IMG/VR virus record: IMGVR_UViG_3300023171_000030
Coordinates: 1-36,516 of that record
Direction: 5' to 3' (one strand)
Length of the DNA stretch: 36,516 nucleotides
From: a virus
A program made the position numbers and the translations under genes. The notes under the pieces were generated by a model. The model did not search any database. It saw only the letters and a list, made by a program, of their open reading frames with translations, and was not told the origin of the DNA. Of this stretch, positions 3,027-30,650 are shown piece by piece (the first letter of the stretch is position 1; every line of letters begins with the position of its first letter).

Positions 3027-3155
3027 ATGGAAGAGAGAAAACCTGAGTACGAAAATGAAGCCGAATATAAATATAACATCATTGTAATCCTGATTGTAAT
3101 TTTAGGGTTCATAATACATTCAAACTATGAAAAAATTATTGCTCTATTTCGTTAA
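3027..3155 (+). CDS. Very small single-pass membrane protein (42 aa)
   Basis: ATG at 3027 follows the preceding stop by 2 nt. The product starts MEERKPEYENEAEYKY, then has a hydrophobic helix (NIIVILIVILGFIIHS) and a short basic tail ending in ALFR. The 3' end overlaps the next gene by 29 nt. The acidic-head plus helix design fits an N-out or N-in single-span peptide. No family recognised. Confidence 0.5.
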   Translation: MEERKPEYENEAEYKYNIIVILIVILGFIIHSNYEKIIALFR

Positions 3156-5922: not shown

Positions 5923-7182
5923 ATGAATATAACATTTTCACTTCAAGGAAGAAAGGAGGTTAAAAAACTCCTTGTAAGGATACGTTTTAGTAAATTGGAC
6001 ATATCCTGTAGTTTGAACATTATGTTGACGGAAAACGAATGGAATAACGATAATCAAAGCGTTATTGACAATCCCGAAGTAAACATTTCTATTCAGCAAT
6101 TGAAAACAGACATTTTGCGATCTTATAATAAAGATTTTTGCAACGGAATATTGATTGATAAAATTTGGCTTTCCTGTGTTATTAAAAGCAGTTTTAATCG
6201 CCCAAAAGAAGAATCAAAACTAATAAACCCAAATCACACTATTTATTTCGTTGATTTCGGTTTATGCTGGCTAGAAAACTTTGCAGATGATTGGAATGTT
6301 TCCAGTAAGAAAAAAATGGGTGTTCCGCTCCAGAACCAGTACAAGAAATTCATTTCTATAGTTTCGGAGTATGAATCAGTAATTTCGGAGCGACTGCAGT
6401 TGAGAAACATTAGAATTTCGGACCTAAAATCATTTGCCGATTATCTGGAAACCGAATTTTATCAGACATCCACGATCGAAAGACACGTTGGCCGGTTCCG
6501 ATTTTTCCTCAATCGAGCACTCGAGCACAATATCGAAGTAAGTAATTCGTTTAAACAAAGAATATACTTTGATAAAGATGATGATGTCGAAGGGGTTTAT
6601 TTGAATGAATCTGAAATACAAAAAATTATCGATCACGATTTTTCAGATAATCACGATCTGGATATTACAAAGCAGAATTTCTTGATAGGAATATTTACTG
6701 GTCTAAGAGCAGGAGATTTTTTAAATCTGGACACGTCGAATATGTCTCAGGGAGTTTTTAAAATTAAAACTCAGAAAACTGGCGCGCGCGTAGTTATCCC
6801 AATTCATCCAGAAGCAAAAAAAGTAATTGATTCTAATTTCGGAAATCTTCCACCAAAAATAAATAAAACCGATTTCAACATACATATAAAAACTATTTGC
6901 CAAATATGTGAAATTGATAACCAGATTTATGGAAAACTTTTCGACAGAAAACGTAAAAGAAAGGTATTTGGATATTATAAAAAATATCAGCTTATTTCCT
7001 CGCACGTTTGCAGGAAAAGTTTCGCCTCACTTTATTACGGCAAAGTAGAAGATTCAGTACTAAAATCTATCATGGGATGGAGCAAAAACAGCAATATGTT
7101 ATCACATTATAACAAAACAAGTAAACAAGAATATGCTGAAATAATGCATAACAAATGGAATAATTTTGAAAACAACATATAA
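5923..7182 (+). CDS. int: Tyrosine recombinase / phage integrase
   Basis: 419 residues, the usual length for Bacteroidota phage and conjugative-element integrases. The N-terminal arm-binding-like region (1-100) and a SAM-like core-binding domain (about 105-210) precede the catalytic domain. Catalytic residues can be placed: Arg262 in FTGLRAGD, Lys285 in TQKTGAR, His361 and Arg364 in SSHVCRKSFAS, Trp386 in MGWSKNS replacing the usual second His, and nucleophile Tyr396 in LSHYNKTS. The set is complete. It would catalyse site-specific integration or excision, implying a temperate life style. It lies in the middle of the plus-strand array, and I see no att-like repeats beside it. Confidence 0.93.
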   Translation: MNITFSLQGRKEVKKLLVRIRFSKLDISCSLNIMLTENEWNNDNQSVIDNPEVNISIQQLKTDILRSYNKDFCNGILIDKIWLSCVIKSSFNRPKEESKLINPNHTIYFVDFGLCWLENFADDWNVSSKKKMGVPLQNQYKKFISIVSEYESVISERLQLRNIRISDLKSFADYLETEFYQTSTIERHVGRFRFFLNRALEHNIEVSNSFKQRIYFDKDDDVEGVYLNESEIQKIIDHDFSDNHDLDITKQNFLIGIFTGLRAGDFLNLDTSNMSQGVFKIKTQKTGARVVIPIHPEAKKVIDSNFGNLPPKINKTDFNIHIKTICQICEIDNQIYGKLFDRKRKRKVFGYYKKYQLISSHVCRKSFASLYYGKVEDSVLKSIMGWSKNSNMLSHYNKTSKQEYAEIMHNKWNNFENNI

Positions 7183-9010: not shown

Positions 9011-9619
9011 ATGCAAAGAAAAATTATTGCTTACAGTAGCGTTTACGAACGTAAAGAAACAAAGGAATTCGAATTTATTGACTTGATTAAAAATCAATCC
9101 ACAATATTTGAATCTTTTGGTATTTATAATTATGTTTATGAACTAGATCGAATCAAAACCATTTCAGACAAAGAAGAAAGAAATCAAGCGAAGCGAAGTT
9201 ATATTCCAGCTGTTGATTTATCAATGAGTGGAGTACTTTCAATTGACATTGACGGGATTTTTAATAATCAAGATCTAAAGTCTAAGATCATAAAAAAACT
9301 ATCAAACTTGAATTCATGTTTTGCAGCAATGGAATCAGTAAGCGGAAATGTTGTCGCTTTTTTTAAATACGAATGTACAACCGTAGAATTTCCTTTCCTT
9401 TATTATAAAATTTACTTGGAACTCACATTGCTTCTTTCGGTAAATATAGATTTTCTTCCGGAAATCGGAAGACTTCGTTATGTGAGTATTGGAGAACTTT
9501 TCCATTATAATGAACATAGTGAAGTTTTGGACGAGGTAATGGAATGCGAAACGCTGCCATACATAAACACCCAAGTAGGTAAAAAGAAAGCCCGGGACGT
9601 AAGATACGGTTCTAATTAA
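9011..9619 (+). CDS. BT4734 / VirE N-terminal-like domain protein (primase-like)
   Basis: I start at ATG 9011, one nt after the preceding stop. An in-frame ATG at 8987 would overlap by 23 nt. The 202 residues resemble the BT4734/VirE N-terminal domain: KRSYIPAVDLSMSG, then the acidic strand SIDIDG (Asp79, Asp81), then MESVSGNVVAFFKY, and later GRLRYVSIGELFHYN. In larger proteins this domain precedes a primase-helicase or VirE-type domain. Here it stands alone with no helicase part. The role may be priming or single-strand DNA handling, inferred from neighbours. Confidence 0.6.
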   Translation: MQRKIIAYSSVYERKETKEFEFIDLIKNQSTIFESFGIYNYVYELDRIKTISDKEERNQAKRSYIPAVDLSMSGVLSIDIDGIFNNQDLKSKIIKKLSNLNSCFAAMESVSGNVVAFFKYECTTVEFPFLYYKIYLELTLLLSVNIDFLPEIGRLRYVSIGELFHYNEHSEVLDEVMECETLPYINTQVGKKKARDVRYGSN

Positions 9620-12577: not shown

Positions 12578-13394
12578 AAGAACCGGAATGATTACTTCTA
12601 GTGAAATTGTGGCTCTTACTACAAATGGAAGGCGTGATATGACGGAGGAAGAGCAAAAAGCCTACAAGTTAGCAAATCCATCAGGAACTCGAAAAACAAT
12701 TGATGGACCAGGAGTTCCATTCTACACTTACGTAGAAGAATGTATTATCGAAAGATTTTATAAGCATTCCTTGGAAAACGACATGGAAGTAAAAGCTATG
12801 GCATGGGGAAAGCTTTGCGAGCCAATTGTCCATAATCTGCTTCCAAACGAGTATATTCTACATTCAGATGAAACAGAAATTCATCCTTTATATCCGGAAT
12901 GGAGGGGCACAGCGGATGGTACAAAGCTAATTGAAGACTCGGTTGTCGACACCGTTACCGATATCAAATGCCCATTAACCCGTAAGGCTCATTACAACCT
13001 AATAAAAAGGCTTTATCATTTTGATGGATTACTCGCTGTTAAAAAAAGGTTTATCGATGGAAATGTTATTATCCAACAAATCCGAAAAGATTCTAAGGAA
13101 GGGGAAAAGTATTATTGGCAACTCTGTAGTAACGCTTGTATCTTAGGTGCAAAATATGCCGAACTAATAGTTTTCATGCCTTACTACGAAGATTTAGAGG
13201 ATATTCAGTTATACAACAGTCAACTTCCGGAACCATATTGGCTAGTTGCCCGCGCAAAAGAAGGAGAGCTTCCTTATATCGACCGTGAAACTGGAATTGA
13301 AAACGTAAACATTATTCGCTTTCAAGTACCTCAAGCCGATAAAGATTACCTTACTTCAAGAGTTGTTTTAGCAATCGAAGAAATAAACAAATAA
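12561..13394 (+). CDS. YqaJ-type viral recombinase (exonuclease)
   Basis: 277 residues. The start (RTGMITSSEIVALTTNGRRD) is the 'S-x-I' opening of YqaJ-family nucleases of the PD-(D/E)XK superfamily. The active site can be placed: Glu87 in WGKLCEPIV, Asp119 in RGTADG, and Asp134-Ile-Lys136 in VTDIKCPL. It should resect double-strand ends 5'-3' to expose single strands for the Rad52-like partner encoded immediately upstream (17-nt overlap). A hairpin in the 49-nt gap after it (13405-13426) may mark the end of this module. Confidence 0.88.
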   Translation: MALSNKRTGMITSSEIVALTTNGRRDMTEEEQKAYKLANPSGTRKTIDGPGVPFYTYVEECIIERFYKHSLENDMEVKAMAWGKLCEPIVHNLLPNEYILHSDETEIHPLYPEWRGTADGTKLIEDSVVDTVTDIKCPLTRKAHYNLIKRLYHFDGLLAVKKRFIDGNVIIQQIRKDSKEGEKYYWQLCSNACILGAKYAELIVFMPYYEDLEDIQLYNSQLPEPYWLVARAKEGELPYIDRETGIENVNIIRFQVPQADKDYLTSRVVLAIEEINK

Positions 13395-13829: not shown

Positions 13830-14158
13830 TGGCAGAAGTAAAAAGCAAATCATATACATTGTATTCGGAAAACGGATCTTGGCTTGGACAAGTTGTAATA
13901 ACAAATGACGGAATGTTTGGTTCCGTAACTGATTGGGGTAATTTTTCTTATTCATGGCGTTCTTTTGGAGATTGTTTCAGGACATTTTTAATTGGACTTA
14001 ACGAACAATATTTTGGAGGAAAATTAGCAACTGGCATGGGATATATTGTCTACAATAAAAAAGTAGAAAAGTCATGCATTAATTACGCTGAAAAAATTCT
14101 TCCGGCTCTGAGAAAAGCATTGAAAGAAGATTTAGAAAAAAATCCAGAGTGGATTTAA
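13829..14158 (+). CDS. Conserved phage hypothetical protein
   Basis: 109 residues. The motif DGMFGSVTDWGNFSYSWRSF, followed by FRTFLIGLNEQYFGGKLATG and a C-terminal helix (INYAEKILPALRKALKED), matches a family I recall from many tailed phages, without a known role. It is coupled to the 59-residue gene and is the last gene before the promoter-like region at 14169. Confidence 0.75.
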   Translation: MAEVKSKSYTLYSENGSWLGQVVITNDGMFGSVTDWGNFSYSWRSFGDCFRTFLIGLNEQYFGGKLATGMGYIVYNKKVEKSCINYAEKILPALRKALKEDLEKNPEWI

Positions 14159-14168
14159 AATAAATACT

Positions 14169-14176
14169 TATATTTG
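14169..14176 (+). promoter_or_regulatory. Bacteroidota-type -7 promoter box before the replication genes
   Basis: TATATTTG fits the Bacteroidota -7 consensus TAnnTTTG and lies in the largest true gap of the plus-strand array (14159-14328). A TTG-like -33 box at the right distance is not clear (TGG at 14151). Transcription would begin near 14182, a few bases before the pseudoknot-capable segment. Confidence 0.45.
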
Positions 14177-14189
14177 CATTAGTATTGAA

Positions 14190-14300
14190 GTCGAGAGCAG
14201 TACAAATCCCACCTAAAAATATTACACAGATTCCTATTGATGAAGCCCTCTCGACAACGGCTGATTCAATAGGATTTCTTGCTATTAATCAACTAATAGT
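14190..14300 (+). ncRNA. Structured leader RNA with pseudoknot potential
   Basis: Within the 170-nt gap before the 72-residue gene, CCTATTGA (14233-14240) pairs with TCAATAGG (14266-14273), and AGCC (14244-14247) with GGCT (14259-14262), leaving a 3x3 internal loop that can hold tandem G-A pairs. The 11-nt hairpin loop contains CTCTCGAC (14248-14255), exactly complementary to GTCGAGAG (14190-14197). The result is an 8-bp pseudoknot. A further 6-bp hairpin follows: CTATTA 14282-14287 with TAATAG 14294-14299. It could be a cis-acting leader of the replication operon or a separate small RNA. Confidence 0.55.
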
Positions 14301-14328
14301 TTACTGGAACTCAAAACCTTTAATTATC

Positions 14329-14547
14329 ATGGCTAAATTCGACCTAAAATTTCTTTGTTGCCACGGATCTGGCGATACCATCAAAGTGGAATATTTAAAA
14401 CAAGTTGACTCTGAATTCAACGAACACTGGATTAGTATTCAAATAGAACAGGAAGGTAAAATGGTTCCAATTGCATTAGACAAATCTACAGCAATTAAAT
14501 TCGCTAAAACACTTCGAACTGAAATCAATAAAATTAATACTGTATGA
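14329..14547 (+). CDS. Small protein related to the gene at 21548
   Basis: I take ATG 14329 (after TTATC) as the start, giving 72 residues. The frame is open back to a TTG at 14185, but that stretch is the structured leader. The C-terminal part, ISIQIEQEGKMVPIALDKST followed by AIKFAKTLRTEI, is similar to the 62-residue protein at 21548 (ISLDKETAIKFANALLK), so the phage carries two copies of a beta-beta-alpha type module. Function unknown. It is the first gene of the replication-initiation operon. Confidence 0.65.
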   Translation: MAKFDLKFLCCHGSGDTIKVEYLKQVDSEFNEHWISIQIEQEGKMVPIALDKSTAIKFAKTLRTEINKINTV

Positions 14548-20133: not shown

Positions 20134-20442
20134 ATGAATCAACAAATTTTTAATGAATTGGAAACGATAAATAAATTGTTCCATTACAAAACGGAAAACA
20201 TTTTAAATTACATCACGAAAAACTTAAATTCAATTTCAAAACTAGAAAGCAGAATAACTGATCTAGATGAAGAGATTGATTCACTTACAGAACAAGTACA
20301 AGATAGACCAAATTGTTTCGAATACCCTGATGGTTTTCAAGATAATATTGTGACCGTTTCTGCTTTGGAAAAAATGTTTGCAAACCTAGACAGAATTCCG
20401 GTGGATAAATTAGATGAATTTGTGGATAAATACGCTGTATAA
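20134..20442 (+). CDS. Coiled-coil hypothetical protein before the clamp gene
   Basis: 102 residues. A central coiled coil (ISKLESRITDLDEEIDSLTE) is followed by a conserved-looking C-terminal part (ALEKMFANLDRIPVDKLDEF). Its stop shares one base with the dnaN start (TAATG at 20440-20444), so the two are translationally coupled. No function recognised; a clamp-related role is only suggested by position. Confidence 0.6.
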   Translation: MNQQIFNELETINKLFHYKTENILNYITKNLNSISKLESRITDLDEEIDSLTEQVQDRPNCFEYPDGFQDNIVTVSALEKMFANLDRIPVDKLDEFVDKYAV

Positions 20443-21521
20443 TGAGTACAATAACCGTAAATAGTATTGATTTATTAAAATCAATCAACGTAGTAGCTCC
20501 TGTTGTAAAAGACAGGACTACTCTTCCGATATTGAGTAATTTGCTGATTAGTGTATCCGGAAACGAACTCAAAATAACGGCCTACAATCAAGAAACTAGA
20601 GCAAGTATAACAATGAAGATAGAAAGCGATGAAGAGTTCTCGTTTTGCGTATCGAAATCACTTCTTCATAGTATTTTGTCTAGTTTGCCAAATGTTGATT
20701 TGTCGATTAGTTTTGCTAAAACCACTTTGAGCATTTCTTCAAAAATAGGAGATTACAGCCTACCTACAGAAGAGGCAGTATTTTTTCCTGAAAGCCCAAA
20801 CTTAGGTGATCTGGATTCATTTAAAGTAGATTCTCAGTTGTTCGTGGACGGAATCCAGAAAGCAATTCCTTATGTAGATTCACTGACAGACAATCTAAAT
20901 CGTATTTTAATAAAATCTGAGGACTCGAAACTAAATATTGCCGGCATGAGCAAGGTTTCCATTTACGAAAAGAAATTCGATTACAATGGAGATGATGTAG
21001 AAATTATGCTTACAACGGAATCTGCCAAATTCATTAGCCAAACCATAAATACTGATTCCGATTTATCTATTAAGTATAATTCTAATTTCTTTTGTGTGTA
21101 TTTCGATAACATAACTATTGAATCTATTCAATTAGCTGTAAAATCGCCTCCTTACGGAAAGCTACTTGATAGTATTAAAGAGGAAAACATTTTAAAAATT
21201 AGTCGCGAATTATTTTTAGGATGCGTGAAAAGATTTTCTGCCGTATCTGATAAGGATAGCAAGTTTTTGGTCATGGAAGTTTCTAAGAAAAAAATTACTT
21301 TGTCTTATGAAAATGACTTTCTAAAACATACCAAAAAAGAGGAAGTAACTGAGTTTGAATACGATGGAATCGAGGTTAGAATCGGGTTAAATATCAATCA
21401 GCTAAGAACTATTTTGAGTACTCTGGAAGAAGATGTGACAATGTATTTTAGCGCACCTGATCGACCTGTCCTATTTGTAGAAACTCATACTAGAATATTG
21501 TTTTCTCCAATGAAAGTTTAA
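20442..21521 (+). CDS. dnaN: DNA polymerase III beta sliding clamp (phage DnaN)
   Basis: 359 residues, close to the usual length of about 370. The N-terminal domain is typical: LLKSINVVAPVVKDRTTLPI, then LSNLLISVSGNELKITAYN, and VSKSLLHSILSSLPN. The second and third domains follow with SLTDNLNRILIKSEDSKLNI and VSKKKITLSYEN, ending in TRILFSPMKV. As a dimeric ring it tethers polymerase to DNA. No polymerase or clamp loader is seen in the window, so host loader and host polymerase are probably used. A protein encoded two genes later carries a clamp-binding-like C-terminus. Confidence 0.9.
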   Translation: MSTITVNSIDLLKSINVVAPVVKDRTTLPILSNLLISVSGNELKITAYNQETRASITMKIESDEEFSFCVSKSLLHSILSSLPNVDLSISFAKTTLSISSKIGDYSLPTEEAVFFPESPNLGDLDSFKVDSQLFVDGIQKAIPYVDSLTDNLNRILIKSEDSKLNIAGMSKVSIYEKKFDYNGDDVEIMLTTESAKFISQTINTDSDLSIKYNSNFFCVYFDNITIESIQLAVKSPPYGKLLDSIKEENILKISRELFLGCVKRFSAVSDKDSKFLVMEVSKKKITLSYENDFLKHTKKEEVTEFEYDGIEVRIGLNINQLRTILSTLEEDVTMYFSAPDRPVLFVETHTRILFSPMKV

Positions 21522-24338: not shown

Positions 24339-27300
24339 TTAATTTGGAGTAGGTGGTTTTGGCGGTGAAGGTAACTTCAGTCCAGAACCTTTTTCTTTTT
24401 TATCTGATTTTGGCTTAGAAGAATAATTCTGAACGTTTCCTAATCCAGTAATTGAAAGAGCTGTTAAGAATGATTTAACCATATCAGGATCTTCTTTTAC
24501 GGCATCCCTAACAGATCCTAAGAAAATAGGATACATTGAGAAAGCTTCATCTTCCGAAAGTGTTTGCCCAAAATCGTTCACTCTTTCTATTTCTCCTGTT
24601 TTTTCATTTAATTTAGGAGTTGAAGTCATATAGTGATGGAACATTTGAAACCCAGGAGATTCTTTATTTATCAAAAATCTAGTTGTAGCATCGAATCTGT
24701 TTTTAATTCCATACTGCTCTTCTCCCATTTTATAAATAGAACCATCGGCACGTTTTACTTGTTCATCAAAGAGTCTTGCATATAAGGTGATTAATGGAAC
24801 ATATCCCCCCCATGGATCATATCTCAGTTTGCCAATTTTTAATTTTCCGAAATCAGAACTTCTTGGATCTTTTTCAATCGTTAGTTCTTCATCATCATCG
24901 TCTTTATAAGCGTTATATGCTGCCGTTAACAAAGCCATTGTTGCCATTGTAGAAACTGCTGACTTTAAAAATGTAGCCATGGCCATTTTATTTGCCACAG
25001 ATACTTTATTGTAGTTTCCGGCTTTAAAATCAGAAGACATAACTTGTTGTCTTACATACCAAATAGGATTAAGTTGTTGAAATACAGAAACAGCATTTTT
25101 AAACGAGAAGAAAAACACATTCAAAAGTTTCTGGTTCATTTCAAATCCGGCCGGCTTCGCTCTTCCAGAAAATGTCCTAATATAGCTTGCCAAAGCCTCA
25201 TAGTCTTCCGGATGATTTATCGGGTCTTTACCTTCCGCTTTAAGCCTATCTACTCCACGGACAAATTCTTCAAATCTTAATTGATTTCCATAAGCAGAAA
25301 GACCTCTTTCAACTGCTTCAAAAGCATTAACATTTTTCCATTGTTGAGATCTTGAAATTTTATCTTTCTCAGTTATTTCAAGTTTGTTTGTAGCAAATTT
25401 ATTATACTGTTTTTTAAATTCATCTATCAAAGTATCTCCAATAGATTTTCTTTTAGTATCTGTAAATTGCTTCCCTTTTTCACCTCCAAAATATCTTGTA
25501 CCTATCATGGTAGCATTCCAGATGAAGTTCAATAAATTTCCAGAGGCCATCTCCTCACGAACTTCATTTCTTAAATCAGGTTGTGTAATACCAATATCTA
25601 GTTTTTTAGCTAATGGAAAGTCGGGATGCCCGATCAACTGAGACATTGATTTGTCTGCTTTCTGCTGAGAACCAATAGAGCCAAACAGTTTCCAGAACTT
25701 TTTACCTAACTCTTTTGGATTTCTTAATAATTCAGAATAAGTAAAACCTCGAAGTTGAATACCAATTAAACCTAAATCCAACGAAGCTTTAACCGCACGA
25801 AGCAATCCTAAAGATTCAAGAGCAGCGTCTAAAAACTTTCTAGCTTTAGTTCTGTTTTTTAATTCTTGAATGTATTTAAGTTTCTCGAAATGCTCATAAA
25901 TTTCCTCTCTTTCAGCGCGTAAATTATTCAATTCATTGTCAGCTAAAATAGGTTTTACTTCTTTTTTAGCGAAATCTTTGTTTTTAATCCTTTCTTCTAA
26001 GTCTGAAATTTGCTTTTTAGCCCTAGTTTTAGCTGTTTTTAAGCGTTTTTCTTCTACTAGCCCAGCTTCTTCTCTCAAAATTTGTTTAGCAGCAAGAAGA
26101 CCTTTTTTCTGTGCTCTAAGATTTTCTAGTTTAGCAGAATTTAAAGCAGATGGTTTTTCTTTGTAAGCAATGTTTTGCGTATCGATTTCTTCTTGTAGCT
26201 TAGATATTGACTTTTCTAAAGTAGATTCTGCGCGCGATATTTTTTGTTCTTCCGTTAATTCCGGTTTTCCAACCAAATCATCTAATGTTTTTCTTTTTTC
26301 ATCACGAATAGATTTTAATGTTTCAGCCTCAGCATCAAGTTTAGTTTCAGTTCTTTCAACTTTCCTTCTTTCTCCGTTTGCTATTTGCTTATCTAAGTCT
26401 TCAATCTGATTTTTAAGATTTGATTTAATTTTATCGATAGCGGTTGCCCATTGCTCTTCTAAGTTAACCGATTCAAGCCCCAGCTCCTTCGCTAAGCGAT
26501 TAACTTCTTTCCTCAACTCTCTTGCTTGTTGCTCCGGTTTTTGACGCTTTAAACCGCTTTTTTTAGGCATTTCTCCATTTAAAACATCTTCATAAGCAGA
26601 AAGCAGTCTTCCGTATTCTTTTAAACGATTTATTTTACTGGTAATTTCATCCTTATTTGGATTTATTTGTTTTCCGTATCCAGTTAGTGCATCACGAATA
26701 TCGCGTATGTCAACATCTGGGAATTCTACTGAAATATCTTCTTTTATTTTTTGAGAAATAACATCTATGTCCGTTTCTCCGGCTTCTACATAATCTCTAA
26801 ATAATTGATTTGGAATTTTTATTTTCCCGTTTTCATCTATAGTTACTTTTGGTTGTTCTTTTTTAGAAACTTCATTAAATATAGCTTCTGCTTCTTTAAA
26901 TAAATTAGGCATGTGCTTTTTCGCTCCATCTCCAATTTCTTTCAAAACTTGTTTAGAAAAATTAGTCAAATCTCCTTTGGCAGCTTTAAAAGTCAATCCT
27001 AAATATTCTCTAAATTCTTTGTCGGCCAACATTGTAGCAACGCTGGTAACATCATTCAATCTTCCAAAGAATTTATTTCGTAATTCTTTTTTTCTTGACT
27101 GTTCTTTTTCTGTTAACCCAGATTTATCCTTAGTAGAAATTTCCTTTTTTCTCGAAAGATCTTCTTGAATATTTTTGATTGCTAATTCTTCTTCGGCTTT
27201 AGTCGCGCGCGATTCGGCTTCTTTAATTCTTTCCTCAACATCCTTTAACTGATTGGTTAGTTTTTCAAATTCAGCCTTAACTTCCGCAGGAATTTCCCCA

Positions 27301-30300
27301 TTGATATCATTGGCTTTATATTCCCTGATCAGTTTTGATAAATTGTATTTTAAAGATTGATCTTTGTTATAGATATAATTCATTATAGCAAGTCCCTGAG
27401 CTGATTTACGCACCGCGTTATCAAAGTCGTTTGATAATTCCTGAAACTTAGCAATAAGAGCCTCCCTGTCTTCCGGATTATTTAACGATTCTTTATCTAT
27501 TTCTGTTTTAAGCTTATTAAGAACTTCATTATAAACAAGCATCTTCATGTCTGTTTCTTCTATAAGATCGTTTTTTAGCGCATTTATTGCTTCAACAGTA
27601 CCAACTTCATCTACAAATGAAACAGCTTCGGCATCAGCCTTAGATTGATTTCTTACATCATAGCTTTCGTTCAGTTCTTTTAATGAGTCTGTGATATCTT
27701 TTTCGTTACCTCCTTCAATTAATCTGGAAAGCAAAGTTCTTTTTCCTGGTTTACGTTCAAAATCATTCTTAGGTTTTGCCTCTTTTTCAACTTTTTCCTT
27801 GTCCGGCTGAACTTCTTCATTGTTTGGCTGTTCTTTAGGTTTATTTTCAGTCTCAATGGTTTCTTTTTTTACTTCAACTTCTCTTTCACTTGGATTAGGC
27901 TCAACGGTTTTAGAAACACTTCTTTCGACAATATCTTCTTGTTCGGTAGTTCGTACTTCATCCACTGGCTTAACTCCAGATCGAACACCTCCATCAGTAT
28001 TAGTATTTGATTTCTGTATTGTTTCATTTTCGTTAACCTTAACAGTTTTAGTATAATCTTGTTTGCTTATGACCGGAACCACCTGCTCTTCGGAAATTTT
28101 AAATATATTGTCCATTTGGGATGATATCTCTTTAATTTTAAGATGGTTTAAATTCGAAATCCCTAACATCCCAAGGATTTCTTTCCATACCTTGCTTACA
28201 ATATTGCTTTCTTTATACTGAGAAGTTCTTCCGATATAATCTCTAAATTTTTTGTTAGAAACAAATTCAGCAATAAATTCATCTTCATTGGTAAGCCCAT
28301 AATTGAATGTTTTTGATAGTTTAGAAGAGTTTTCTAAATAATCATTTATTGTGTGTTTTAATAAACGATAAGATTCAACTTGGTCTTTTGTTAATACTTT
28401 TTTCATCTCTTCCATGTTATTGGAAAGATTATCATACGCGATCACAGAAGCCGCATGAACTGCTTCATGGAATAAAACTTTATCTTTTGAAGATTCATTA
28501 AACAGGTTAACTAAGTTAGATATTTCTATCTTGTTTTTTCCTGCATCAAATATTCCTGCAGTTTGTACGTCTTTAAGTAAATCACCAGTATCTACTATAA
28601 ATTTAGACTGCAATGTTGTGTTGTCTGGTATTGCATCTATTATATTTTGTGGAACATTGATTCTTTTCAACTCTTTTTTTAGAGGACTTTCGGTTTTTAT
28701 CTCCTCGACCTCTTGTGTTTCATTTGTTGGTTCTTGTATTTCGGCTTGTGGTTTGGCTTCGGTAGCTCCGGTAACAACTGTTTCTGATTTAACTTCATCT
28801 GTGATTTGATTTGAATAGTTTTTATTTGCTCTTTCTGTTATTTGTTCATTAGTAATCTCAATGTTTTTTTTACCTTCCGGATTAAGCTCTTCTGTTAGTT
28901 GTTTTAAAGCCTCTCGCTTAAGTTTATCCTGTTCTTTTATAGGCAGCACATCTACTTCCGAAATAGATCCTTCTAATATTTTAGACTTTAAATCATTCGC
29001 CTTGGTGTATTCAGTTTTTAAATTATCTAATAATATTTGTTTAGTTTCAGTAGTTGTACTTGGATCTAGTTTTATTTGTTTCGCTTTTTCTTGTGTAGAC
29101 TCTGTGATGTCAATAGACTTCAACAATTCTTCTTTTACTTTTGGCGATAGAGATTCTACATGTTCAACATTTTTTTGAACAAGATTTCTGTTTGTATCAA
29201 TTAAACCATCAATGGTTTTGGTTATTTCCTGTTTTGATTCCGGAGATAACTCGGGATTTTGAAGTTCATTCTGTAAATTAAAGACTTTTTTGTTATTGGT
29301 TTTTATCGTGTTTTTATCCTGGTAATTTGTCACTTGTTGAATTCCTTTTAATCCTGCGCCAAAAACAGCTCCTCCAAACGCGCCTCCAATAAAATCATCG
29401 GCCATGGTCTGATAAATATTATAATCGGCCGGCTTAACTCCCGTAGCCACATCCACTGCGTTTTCGGCAACTCCTTGAAAAGCTTCCTCTAATCCCTCTC
29501 CAGACATAGACGCTAATAATGGATTTTTCAGCAAAGCATTTTTATAATACTCGCTTAATCCATCTTTCAAAATAGTTACTGCCTTTTTACTTCCTTCTCT
29601 TTCAACAAGGCCTCTTGCAGCTGCTCCAATACTACCGGTCCCTAATGACTCAGTTGCTCCCTGAATTAATCCGGTAGCCAATGCATTTGCAACTCTGACA
29701 TTATTATTCATTTCCGAATTTTCTTCTTTTAGTTGCTCGTTTTTACCAGCACCAAACATCATAGATGAAGCAGCGATTAATTGGGGAGCTTTCATTGCTG
29801 CTCCACCAACCATAATAGAGGTAGTTGCCGGCAATGATTCAGCAAAACTATTGGTTAACTGATCAAATCCTCCGCTGTAATCTCCATTCACGAATGAATC
29901 ATAAATACCATCTTGATATTTTATATCGGTTTCTAAAGATTTTTGTTTTAATCCTGAAACTTCTTTTTTGTAGTAATCTTTTACTGCATTATTAACCCCA
30001 ACTGTTTTTTTAAACTCTTCGGAATTAGTTCTAAAACTAGGCAGATTAAAAGTATCGGCTATTGCGTTTTGAGGTATAGCAAAAACATCATAAACTAATT
30101 CAGGAATTGAAGCAATATCAGCGCCTAGTTGAGAGCTTCCAGTAGCTAGTCTATCGGTAAGCGCACCAATTTTACTATAGTTTTGTCTTTCTCGTTCACG
30201 AGCCTTAGAGGCTTCTTTGAAAGCTTCTTGCTCTTTATTTATTTTTGATAATTCATCCGTTTTTTTAGATATTTCATCTTGATTTTCTGGAGTGACTGTT

Positions 30301-30650
30301 CTGTCCGACAGTTCATCTTCAAGTTCTGCTTTTCGTTGAAGAGTTTTAGCGTTTTTGTCCAAAAAGGTTTTTAGTTCTTTGTTTACTTTAGGCACAGCAG
30401 TTTTAGGAGGATTAATTGTTTTTAAATCCTCCTTAGATAAACCGGTAAAAGTTTTTATTTTAGTATCTGGCCCACCCGCAGAACCAGTAGTCGGTTCCAA
30501 AACCAATTCTTTCTTTTGAATAATAGAAGTAGAAGGGTCTTTTTTTTTTACTTCATCAAAAGGCAAATCTGGATTAAATGCCGGTTTTTCTGATGAAACT
30601 TCTTCATAAGCTTTATTTGGATCGAATTTAGGTTTTTTAGGTTGCTCCAT
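24339..30650 (-). CDS. Giant polyvalent virion protein with HEAVH zincin-like motif
   Basis: 2103 residues, minus strand. The N-terminus has a repeated short motif (FDPNKAYEEV, FNPDLPFDEV) and a Lys/Glu-rich region. Two hydrophobic stretches lie at about 275-305 and 415-435. Residues 728-732 read HEAVH (in FHEAVHAASV), with Glu795 in EDEFIAEFV as a possible third metal ligand, as in zincin-like domains of phage polyvalent proteins. Long coiled coils span about 1100-1250 and 1400-1650. A hydrophobic segment near 1890 (TMATMALLTAAY) precedes the C-terminal domain. It is the last gene of a podovirus-like block after two ejection-type proteins and probably enters the cell with the DNA. Confidence 0.75.
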   Translation of the reverse strand: MEQPKKPKFDPNKAYEEVSSEKPAFNPDLPFDEVKKKDPSTSIIQKKELVLEPTTGSAGGPDTKIKTFTGLSKEDLKTINPPKTAVPKVNKELKTFLDKNAKTLQRKAELEDELSDRTVTPENQDEISKKTDELSKINKEQEAFKEASKARERERQNYSKIGALTDRLATGSSQLGADIASIPELVYDVFAIPQNAIADTFNLPSFRTNSEEFKKTVGVNNAVKDYYKKEVSGLKQKSLETDIKYQDGIYDSFVNGDYSGGFDQLTNSFAESLPATTSIMVGGAAMKAPQLIAASSMMFGAGKNEQLKEENSEMNNNVRVANALATGLIQGATESLGTGSIGAAARGLVEREGSKKAVTILKDGLSEYYKNALLKNPLLASMSGEGLEEAFQGVAENAVDVATGVKPADYNIYQTMADDFIGGAFGGAVFGAGLKGIQQVTNYQDKNTIKTNNKKVFNLQNELQNPELSPESKQEITKTIDGLIDTNRNLVQKNVEHVESLSPKVKEELLKSIDITESTQEKAKQIKLDPSTTTETKQILLDNLKTEYTKANDLKSKILEGSISEVDVLPIKEQDKLKREALKQLTEELNPEGKKNIEITNEQITERANKNYSNQITDEVKSETVVTGATEAKPQAEIQEPTNETQEVEEIKTESPLKKELKRINVPQNIIDAIPDNTTLQSKFIVDTGDLLKDVQTAGIFDAGKNKIEISNLVNLFNESSKDKVLFHEAVHAASVIAYDNLSNNMEEMKKVLTKDQVESYRLLKHTINDYLENSSKLSKTFNYGLTNEDEFIAEFVSNKKFRDYIGRTSQYKESNIVSKVWKEILGMLGISNLNHLKIKEISSQMDNIFKISEEQVVPVISKQDYTKTVKVNENETIQKSNTNTDGGVRSGVKPVDEVRTTEQEDIVERSVSKTVEPNPSEREVEVKKETIETENKPKEQPNNEEVQPDKEKVEKEAKPKNDFERKPGKRTLLSRLIEGGNEKDITDSLKELNESYDVRNQSKADAEAVSFVDEVGTVEAINALKNDLIEETDMKMLVYNEVLNKLKTEIDKESLNNPEDREALIAKFQELSNDFDNAVRKSAQGLAIMNYIYNKDQSLKYNLSKLIREYKANDINGEIPAEVKAEFEKLTNQLKDVEERIKEAESRATKAEEELAIKNIQEDLSRKKEISTKDKSGLTEKEQSRKKELRNKFFGRLNDVTSVATMLADKEFREYLGLTFKAAKGDLTNFSKQVLKEIGDGAKKHMPNLFKEAEAIFNEVSKKEQPKVTIDENGKIKIPNQLFRDYVEAGETDIDVISQKIKEDISVEFPDVDIRDIRDALTGYGKQINPNKDEITSKINRLKEYGRLLSAYEDVLNGEMPKKSGLKRQKPEQQARELRKEVNRLAKELGLESVNLEEQWATAIDKIKSNLKNQIEDLDKQIANGERRKVERTETKLDAEAETLKSIRDEKRKTLDDLVGKPELTEEQKISRAESTLEKSISKLQEEIDTQNIAYKEKPSALNSAKLENLRAQKKGLLAAKQILREEAGLVEEKRLKTAKTRAKKQISDLEERIKNKDFAKKEVKPILADNELNNLRAEREEIYEHFEKLKYIQELKNRTKARKFLDAALESLGLLRAVKASLDLGLIGIQLRGFTYSELLRNPKELGKKFWKLFGSIGSQQKADKSMSQLIGHPDFPLAKKLDIGITQPDLRNEVREEMASGNLLNFIWNATMIGTRYFGGEKGKQFTDTKRKSIGDTLIDEFKKQYNKFATNKLEITEKDKISRSQQWKNVNAFEAVERGLSAYGNQLRFEEFVRGVDRLKAEGKDPINHPEDYEALASYIRTFSGRAKPAGFEMNQKLLNVFFFSFKNAVSVFQQLNPIWYVRQQVMSSDFKAGNYNKVSVANKMAMATFLKSAVSTMATMALLTAAYNAYKDDDDEELTIEKDPRSSDFGKLKIGKLRYDPWGGYVPLITLYARLFDEQVKRADGSIYKMGEEQYGIKNRFDATTRFLINKESPGFQMFHHYMTSTPKLNEKTGEIERVNDFGQTLSEDEAFSMYPIFLGSVRDAVKEDPDMVKSFLTALSITGLGNVQNYSSKPKSDKKEKGSGLKLPSPPKPPTPN

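Follow-up and report, generated by a model that had tools for sequence, protein, structure and literature searches.

This locus raises the question of what kind of RNA leader lies between a predicted promoter and a 72-aa protein gene in the window (the whole stretch of 36,516 nucleotides analysed here, from IMG/VR record IMGVR_UViG_3300023171_000030), and of what that RNA might do for the phage. The initial annotation had proposed a simple leader pseudoknot controlling the translation of a replication initiator. We focused on the fold of the leader, its conservation in related phages and the genes that it precedes. There is very strong evidence for an RNA in which two hairpins pair through their loops and a terminator-like U-run comes next.

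In the window, all parts of the leader lie on the plus strand. The -7 promoter box of the Bacteroidota type TAnnTTTG (TATATTTG, 14169–14176) is followed, at the expected transcript start, by hairpin 1 (14182–14203), in which a 6-bp stem, GUAUUG(AAGUCGAGAG)CAGUAC, closes a loop that contains the kissing strand K5 (GUCGAGAG, 14190–14197). An A/U-rich linker (14204–14231), reading AAAAAUAUUACA in the window and AAAANAUUAUA in many homologues, leads to hairpin 2 (14232–14274), whose 11-nt loop carries the second kissing strand, K3 (CUCUCGAC, 14248–14255), in its 5' part. This hairpin had been described as an interrupted stem with a tandem G-A internal loop, and so it is: an outer stem of 9 bp and an inner stem of 4 bp flank a 3x3 loop, UGA/GAU, in which U.U, G.A and A.G face each other. 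A U-rich tail (UUUCUUGC, 14275–14282), weaker in the window than in relatives, comes directly after it. The exact complementarity noticed earlier between 14190–14197 (GTCGAGAG) and 14248–14255 (CTCTCGAC) is real, correctly placed and conserved. Hairpin 1, however, had been overlooked, and because 14190–14197 sits in its loop, the fold is an intramolecular kissing-loop complex and not a plain pseudoknot. A further 6-bp hairpin that had also been reported is present in the window (14282–14287 / 14294–14299) but was not seen in the homologues inspected. A box C/D-like kink-turn, brought to mind by a stem that reads UGAUGA...CUGA, was set aside, the internal loop being symmetric and varying (GGA/GAA, UGAA/GGAU).

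Comparison with shuffled sequences shows this fold to be more than chance. Folding of 14169–14340 as a whole was equalled by 3 of 200 shuffles (z -2.3), and hairpin 2, which has a stability of -18 to -19 kcal/mol (-18.1 kcal/mol in the window), found no equal among 200. A scan for two hairpins with complementary loops gave the window leader 60.5, a value that none of its 200 shuffles reached (maximum 50.5), and four homologues likewise scored above all 200 shuffles of each. As for the promoter, the motif TAnnTTTG has 47 occurrences in the window, where 56 would arise by chance. Only its retention by relatives, a short way upstream of hairpin 1, gives the box meaning: the strict motif lies within 20 nt upstream of that hairpin in 54 of the 59 leaders described below, against 5% in shuffles. 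The earlier call of a promoter box with a structured leader behind it is supported.

The element is shared by many phages. BLAST with the leader found Flavobacterium phages of the lillamy, morran, mumin and snusmum groups, and BLAST with the adjoining gene found Olleya phage Harreka_1. All these homologues have one layout—-7 box, hairpin 1, A/U-rich linker, hairpin 2 with a purine-rich internal loop, U-run—and loop pairs that differ from phage to phage but always match: GUGAGAAG/CUUCUCAC in morran9-1, GUGAGACG/CGUCUCAC in filifjonk9-1, GUGGAACG/CGUUCCAC in mumin6-1 and GUGGUGG/CCACCAC in Harreka_1. Between filifjonk and mumin, where stems and linkers are nearly identical, two kissing pairs differ and each is compensated. 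Through an alignment of the 72-aa protein encoded downstream, 80 IMG/VR loci were retrieved, in most of which the two-hairpin scanner found the element upstream of the gene; the scanner-positive loci, four reference phages and the window together give 59 unique leaders, with 34 distinct loop sequences and 6–10 Watson-Crick pairs. The scanner missed 16 items. Kissing pairing is visible on inspection in L013, L032, L035, L046, L047, L077, L082 and L087–L089; the leader of L025 is cut off near the contig end, that of L041 looks like a variant, and L050 and L051 have the element further upstream. L056 and L061 have none directly upstream of the 72-aa gene, and the L056 record holds a covariance-model match about 670 nt further up, unconfirmed by the kissing scanner. 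Nearly all of the 80 loci have the layout given above. In morran9-1 (MN812219.1), the hypothetical protein annotated as morran91_gp042 (14157–14300) overlaps the two-hairpin RNA, and the call is probably spurious.

The geometry of these leaders is regular. The -7 box ends 3–7 nt before hairpin 1 in 50 of the 59, and hairpin 2 ends 41–57 nt before the ATG of the 72-aa gene in all but two. The linker measures 12–23 nt in most leaders and 28 nt in the window. Among the seven linkers of at least 26 nt, six contain a mini-hairpin of 5–6 bp, the window being the exception, against 1 of 52 shorter ones; long linkers folded up in this manner, as if to hold the effective span constant, fit kissing within one molecule. 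A correlation between linker and stem length (-0.41) was dropped, being partly an arithmetic effect of the scanner's stem extension. No Rfam 15 family matched the window element or the elements of those related loci that were scanned, at gathering or permissive thresholds, and our literature search found no paper joining kissing loop, phage, leader and Flavobacterium; a paper on Flavobacterium phages makes no mention of RNA, promoter or terminator (PMC7077304). Bacterial genome contigs searched with the 72-aa protein as query gave no relative.

Covariation shows that many related phages keep the fold across hundreds of compensating changes and, at the same time, bears on whether it exists as RNA. 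In alignment A4 of 34 rep-class leaders, covering 31 pairs, 93.2% of cells are paired, a share that falls to 79% in shuffles and to about 40% with slid partners; two-sided changes affect 24 of the 31 pairs (143 two-sided cells), and none of 500 shuffles reached the alignment on any of five measures. Helix 1 has 88% of its cells paired and two-sided changes in four of seven pairs, the outer helix of hairpin 2 has 92% and 12 of 14, and the kissing helix has 98.9% and six of eight, with 63 two-sided cells and not a single one-sided one. RNAalifold, unable to draw both this helix and the stems, selects the kissing helix by itself. The homing-endonuclease class, 14 shorter leaders, shows covariation of its own (two-sided changes in 14 of 17 pairs). 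The initial annotation had staked its leader on compensatory changes in both helices among homologous phages, and these are abundant. G-U pairs account for 67 of 695 paired cells in the stems and for none of 269 in the kissing helix, where their absence is partly a bias of the scanner, which demanded six contiguous Watson-Crick pairs; even so, 7–9 contiguous Watson-Crick kissing pairs can still be read in scanner-missed loci (in L077 by eye). Kissing arms so strictly Watson-Crick are also what a DNA-level inverted repeat, an operator or origin with no role as RNA, would show. We give that reading hardly any credence, since the hairpin stems hold many G-U pairs and one-sided changes, which are typical of RNA, and all parts are co-oriented with the promoter and the gene. 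In pairs of relatives, kissing pairs diverge about as fast as stem pairs and thus give no sign of diversifying selection; the idea of hypervariable, diversifying loops was rejected.

The conserved neighbour of the leader is the gene for the 72-aa protein (14329–14547, plus strand), which lies outside the RNA. In this protein family the C-terminal helix (LDKSTAIKFAKTLRTEINKI) is nearly invariant and the middle highly variable (window and L010–L089, mostly at 1501–1700). AlphaFold2 predicts a beta4-alpha fold (mean pLDDT 86.5), and the best matches of the model are Pur-alpha repeats and PC4-like proteins, with middling values (Foldseek TM 0.6–0.75; VIA Z up to 7.1, rmsd 2.1 over 61 residues). 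This suggests that the protein shares the PUR/PC4-like single-stranded nucleic-acid-binding fold, a statement about its predicted fold and not its function. The family matches only PHROG 33177, of unknown function, and adjoins replication genes. Co-evolution of the loop sequence with the variable middle of the protein was considered and rejected (partial r 0.04, p 0.16). Comparison with homologues also identifies a degenerate mini-hairpin before the ATG in the window, GG(AACUCAAAA)CC (14306–14318, plus strand). Its homologues, NGG(UAUCUUAAAA)CCN, have covarying stems and stand mostly 8 nt before the ATG (near 3146–3162 in L003, for example), with AGG/CCU, CGG/CCG, CCG/CGG and CAG/CUG among the variants of the 3-bp stem. 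The mini-hairpin is kept with the gene in L056 and L061, where the kissing element is not directly upstream, and is a possible translational operator. Elsewhere in the window we noted a phage DNA polymerase III beta clamp (20442–21521; Pfam PF00712, PF02768), a very long minus-strand ORF of 2103 aa (24339–30650) that runs convergent to the early region, and a tyrosine integrase (5923–7182), so that the window phage may be temperate, unlike its mumin-group relatives, which have been reported as lytic only. In morran9-1, an Rfam DUF805b RNA (RF02914, 52 bits; L003 1675–1709) lies just upstream of the start of gp040, a ParB-like gene (Pfam PF02195).

Where hairpin 2 ends, 85% of the 59 leaders have at least six T in nine positions, against 6% in background, and the U-run abuts hairpin 2 in both the rep and the homing-endonuclease classes. 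It is tied to the hairpin and not to the start codon, because the distance to the ATG is 41–57 nt in the rep class and mostly 7–24 nt in the endonuclease class; a U-run that keeps its place behind hairpin 2 at ATG distances of both about 12 and about 47 nt speaks for termination more than for a part in ribosome binding. A stable hairpin followed by a U-run is the anatomy of an intrinsic terminator, the U-run being weak in the window itself. Hairpin 2 of the window and that of morran9-1 both went unreported in a simple terminator scan, which accepts loops of up to 8 nt and so excludes a hairpin of this kind. The same distances bear on the proposal that the element is an mRNA 5'-end stabiliser or translation element, in which the kissed structure would block 5'-dependent decay or offer a U-rich stretch to the ribosome. 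The position of hairpin 1 at the predicted transcript start would suit such a role, as would the short spacing before endonuclease genes, but in the rep class the U-run keeps to the hairpin and not to the ATG, and protection could be had from a plain 5' hairpin, which would leave the kissing helix superfluous; we regard this proposal as rather improbable.

There is moderate evidence for a function, which would be regulated termination. The specific reading that we favour, tentatively and at close to an even chance, is that of a cis-acting leader RNA combining a self-contained promoter with a conditional terminator (an attenuator), the choice between termination and read-through resting with loop kissing. 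Transcription would start at hairpin 1; hairpins 1 and 2 would fold and their loops would kiss through 7–9 Watson-Crick pairs; hairpin 2 and the U-run would thereby place an intrinsic-terminator-like structure between promoter and gene, at which RNA polymerase would either terminate, releasing an RNA of roughly 85–120 nt, or read through into the gene. The loop-loop contact would set this choice during RNA synthesis. A separate small RNA, the alternative already named in the initial annotation, keeps some chance because hairpin 2 with its U-run resembles an intrinsic terminator. The terminated RNA would then be the product, and its loops would act in trans by pairing with other RNAs or with the leader itself, in the manner of antisense copy control or of phage immunity. 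Its promoter and terminator-like ends do bracket an RNA of about 110 nt, and the copies within one genome, that of hattifnatt9-1, have different loops (GTGAGACG, GCTTCGAC and GTCGTCG). Each loop is sequestered in cis, however, with its complement in the same RNA, and the loops diverge no faster than the stems. Lysogenic immunity in particular is a weak candidate and was discarded, since carriers of the mumin group are reported to be lytic only (PMC7077304). On balance, the chance of a trans-acting product appears small.

In some phages the element occurs two or three times, and it is not confined to replication genes. R1, a covariance model of the two hairpins built on rep-class leaders only, revealed, together with the scanner, more copies with different loops inside the same genomes, at one to three copies per genome. 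Those of hattifnatt9-1 stand at 9372 (helicase), 13312 (NUMOD4 endonuclease) and 14346 (rep region). In other phages, the gene that follows a copy codes for an ERF recombinase, a replication protein or a NUMOD4/HNH homing endonuclease. R1 also detects the endonuclease class (E 2e-4), and the element precedes 25 of 97 loci with relatives of two homing endonucleases, against 2 of 232 control stretches. It is rare before ERF relatives (3 of 80), an occasional association. NUMOD4/HNH endonucleases of Bacteroidota phages were seen to travel with their own promoter and kissing-hairpin leader at 13312–13390 of L105 and likewise at L253, L260, L275, L318, L324, L326 and L330, the leader standing about 10–24 nt before the ATG.

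Since copies also precede helicase, ERF, replication and NUMOD4/HNH endonuclease genes, the element is not specific to Rep, and the Rep-specific copy-control role first suggested for it is not supported. A leader pseudoknot governing translation of the replication initiator in the style of IncI-alpha plasmids agrees with the location upstream of replication genes in the window and many relatives, but the rep-class element ends 41–57 nt before the PUR-like 72-aa gene and not at an initiator, and there is no conserved leader peptide; we judge such control very improbable. The leader is likewise not protein-coding: only in the window is the frame that leads into the 72-aa gene free of stops, eight relatives having 1–5. 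Homing-endonuclease genes carry the element along in different phages; the attenuator-like leader that we favour therefore probably needs no partner-specific phage protein and probably serves Bacteroidota phages as a self-contained cassette for their early genes. Against it, a homing endonuclease that brought a strong terminator into an early operon would do damage to the genes downstream unless read-through were efficient. More speculatively, the element may represent a large, undescribed class of RNA-only switch of Bacteroidota phages—promoter, 5' hairpin and terminator hairpin, with a private kissing code for each gene—that is spread by endonucleases and whose equally coded RNAs compete in trans so that gene dosage is read. 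We consider this doubtful; if true, each gene in a genome would have its own orthogonal kissing code.

Set against what is known, the element is a kind of phage leader RNA, putatively an attenuator, that has no Rfam entry and is very widespread. A structured RNA with this much covariation and yet no Rfam entry is an uncommon find, and this one is short, almost universal beside one gene family and easily mutated. It offers a handle on early-gene control in Bacteroidota phages, where promoters and ribosome-binding sites are unlike the E. coli ones, and may serve as an RNA-only regulatory part in Bacteroidota. Purine, lysine and cobalamin terminator riboswitches also combine a loop-loop tertiary contact with an adjacent terminator hairpin in a promoter-proximal RNA. 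Unlike in these riboswitches and in attenuators, the kissing partner in our element is the terminator hairpin's own loop; its kissing pairs are, moreover, not conserved in sequence, and no conserved ligand pocket is evident. The kissing loops of ColE1 RNAI/RNAII and the IncI-alpha repZ pseudoknot belong to plasmid copy-control RNAs, with which the element shares loop pairing that is Watson-Crick throughout and a place in the leader ahead of replication functions. It differs from them in having both loops in one RNA, in needing no antisense transcript and in also preceding non-replication genes, and it lacks two defining traits of the IncI-alpha type of H-type pseudoknot, a single-stranded partner and a translated leader peptide. 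P4 CI RNA and P1 c4 RNA, which act in trans for lysogenic immunity, are likewise short structured RNAs in a phage operon leader and tied to premature termination, whereas carriers of the kissing element include phages reported to be lytic only (PMC7077304).

The closest functional precedent is put of phage HK022. The put RNAs are RNA-only elements of about 70 nt with two stem-loops, present in two copies per genome, with putL located just after an early promoter (PMC9378689). This precedent provides the main rival to the attenuator, in which the two-hairpin RNA, made first, would act as a processive antiterminator, binding the elongating RNA polymerase and carrying it past the terminator-like hairpin of the RNA itself and past terminators further on. 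A put-like role would agree with the pair of hairpins at the start of the transcript, the one to three copies per genome, the link to early genes and the apparent autonomy, but we hold it to be unlikely. The U-run lies directly behind hairpin 2 in 85% of rep-class elements, whereas put needs none; no loop-loop kissing helix has been described for put, and the word kissing or pseudoknot does not occur in the paper on it (PMC9378689); and the window has no clear excess of downstream terminators to be read through (9 found, 9.2 expected). Compared by description and not by sequence, put thus differs in having neither a U-run terminator nor a described kissing helix, and in its hosts. What the two have in common is more than one copy per genome and a pair of stem-loops close to an early promoter and to the start of the early transcript, which in our element places hairpin 1 only 3–7 nt past the -7 box.
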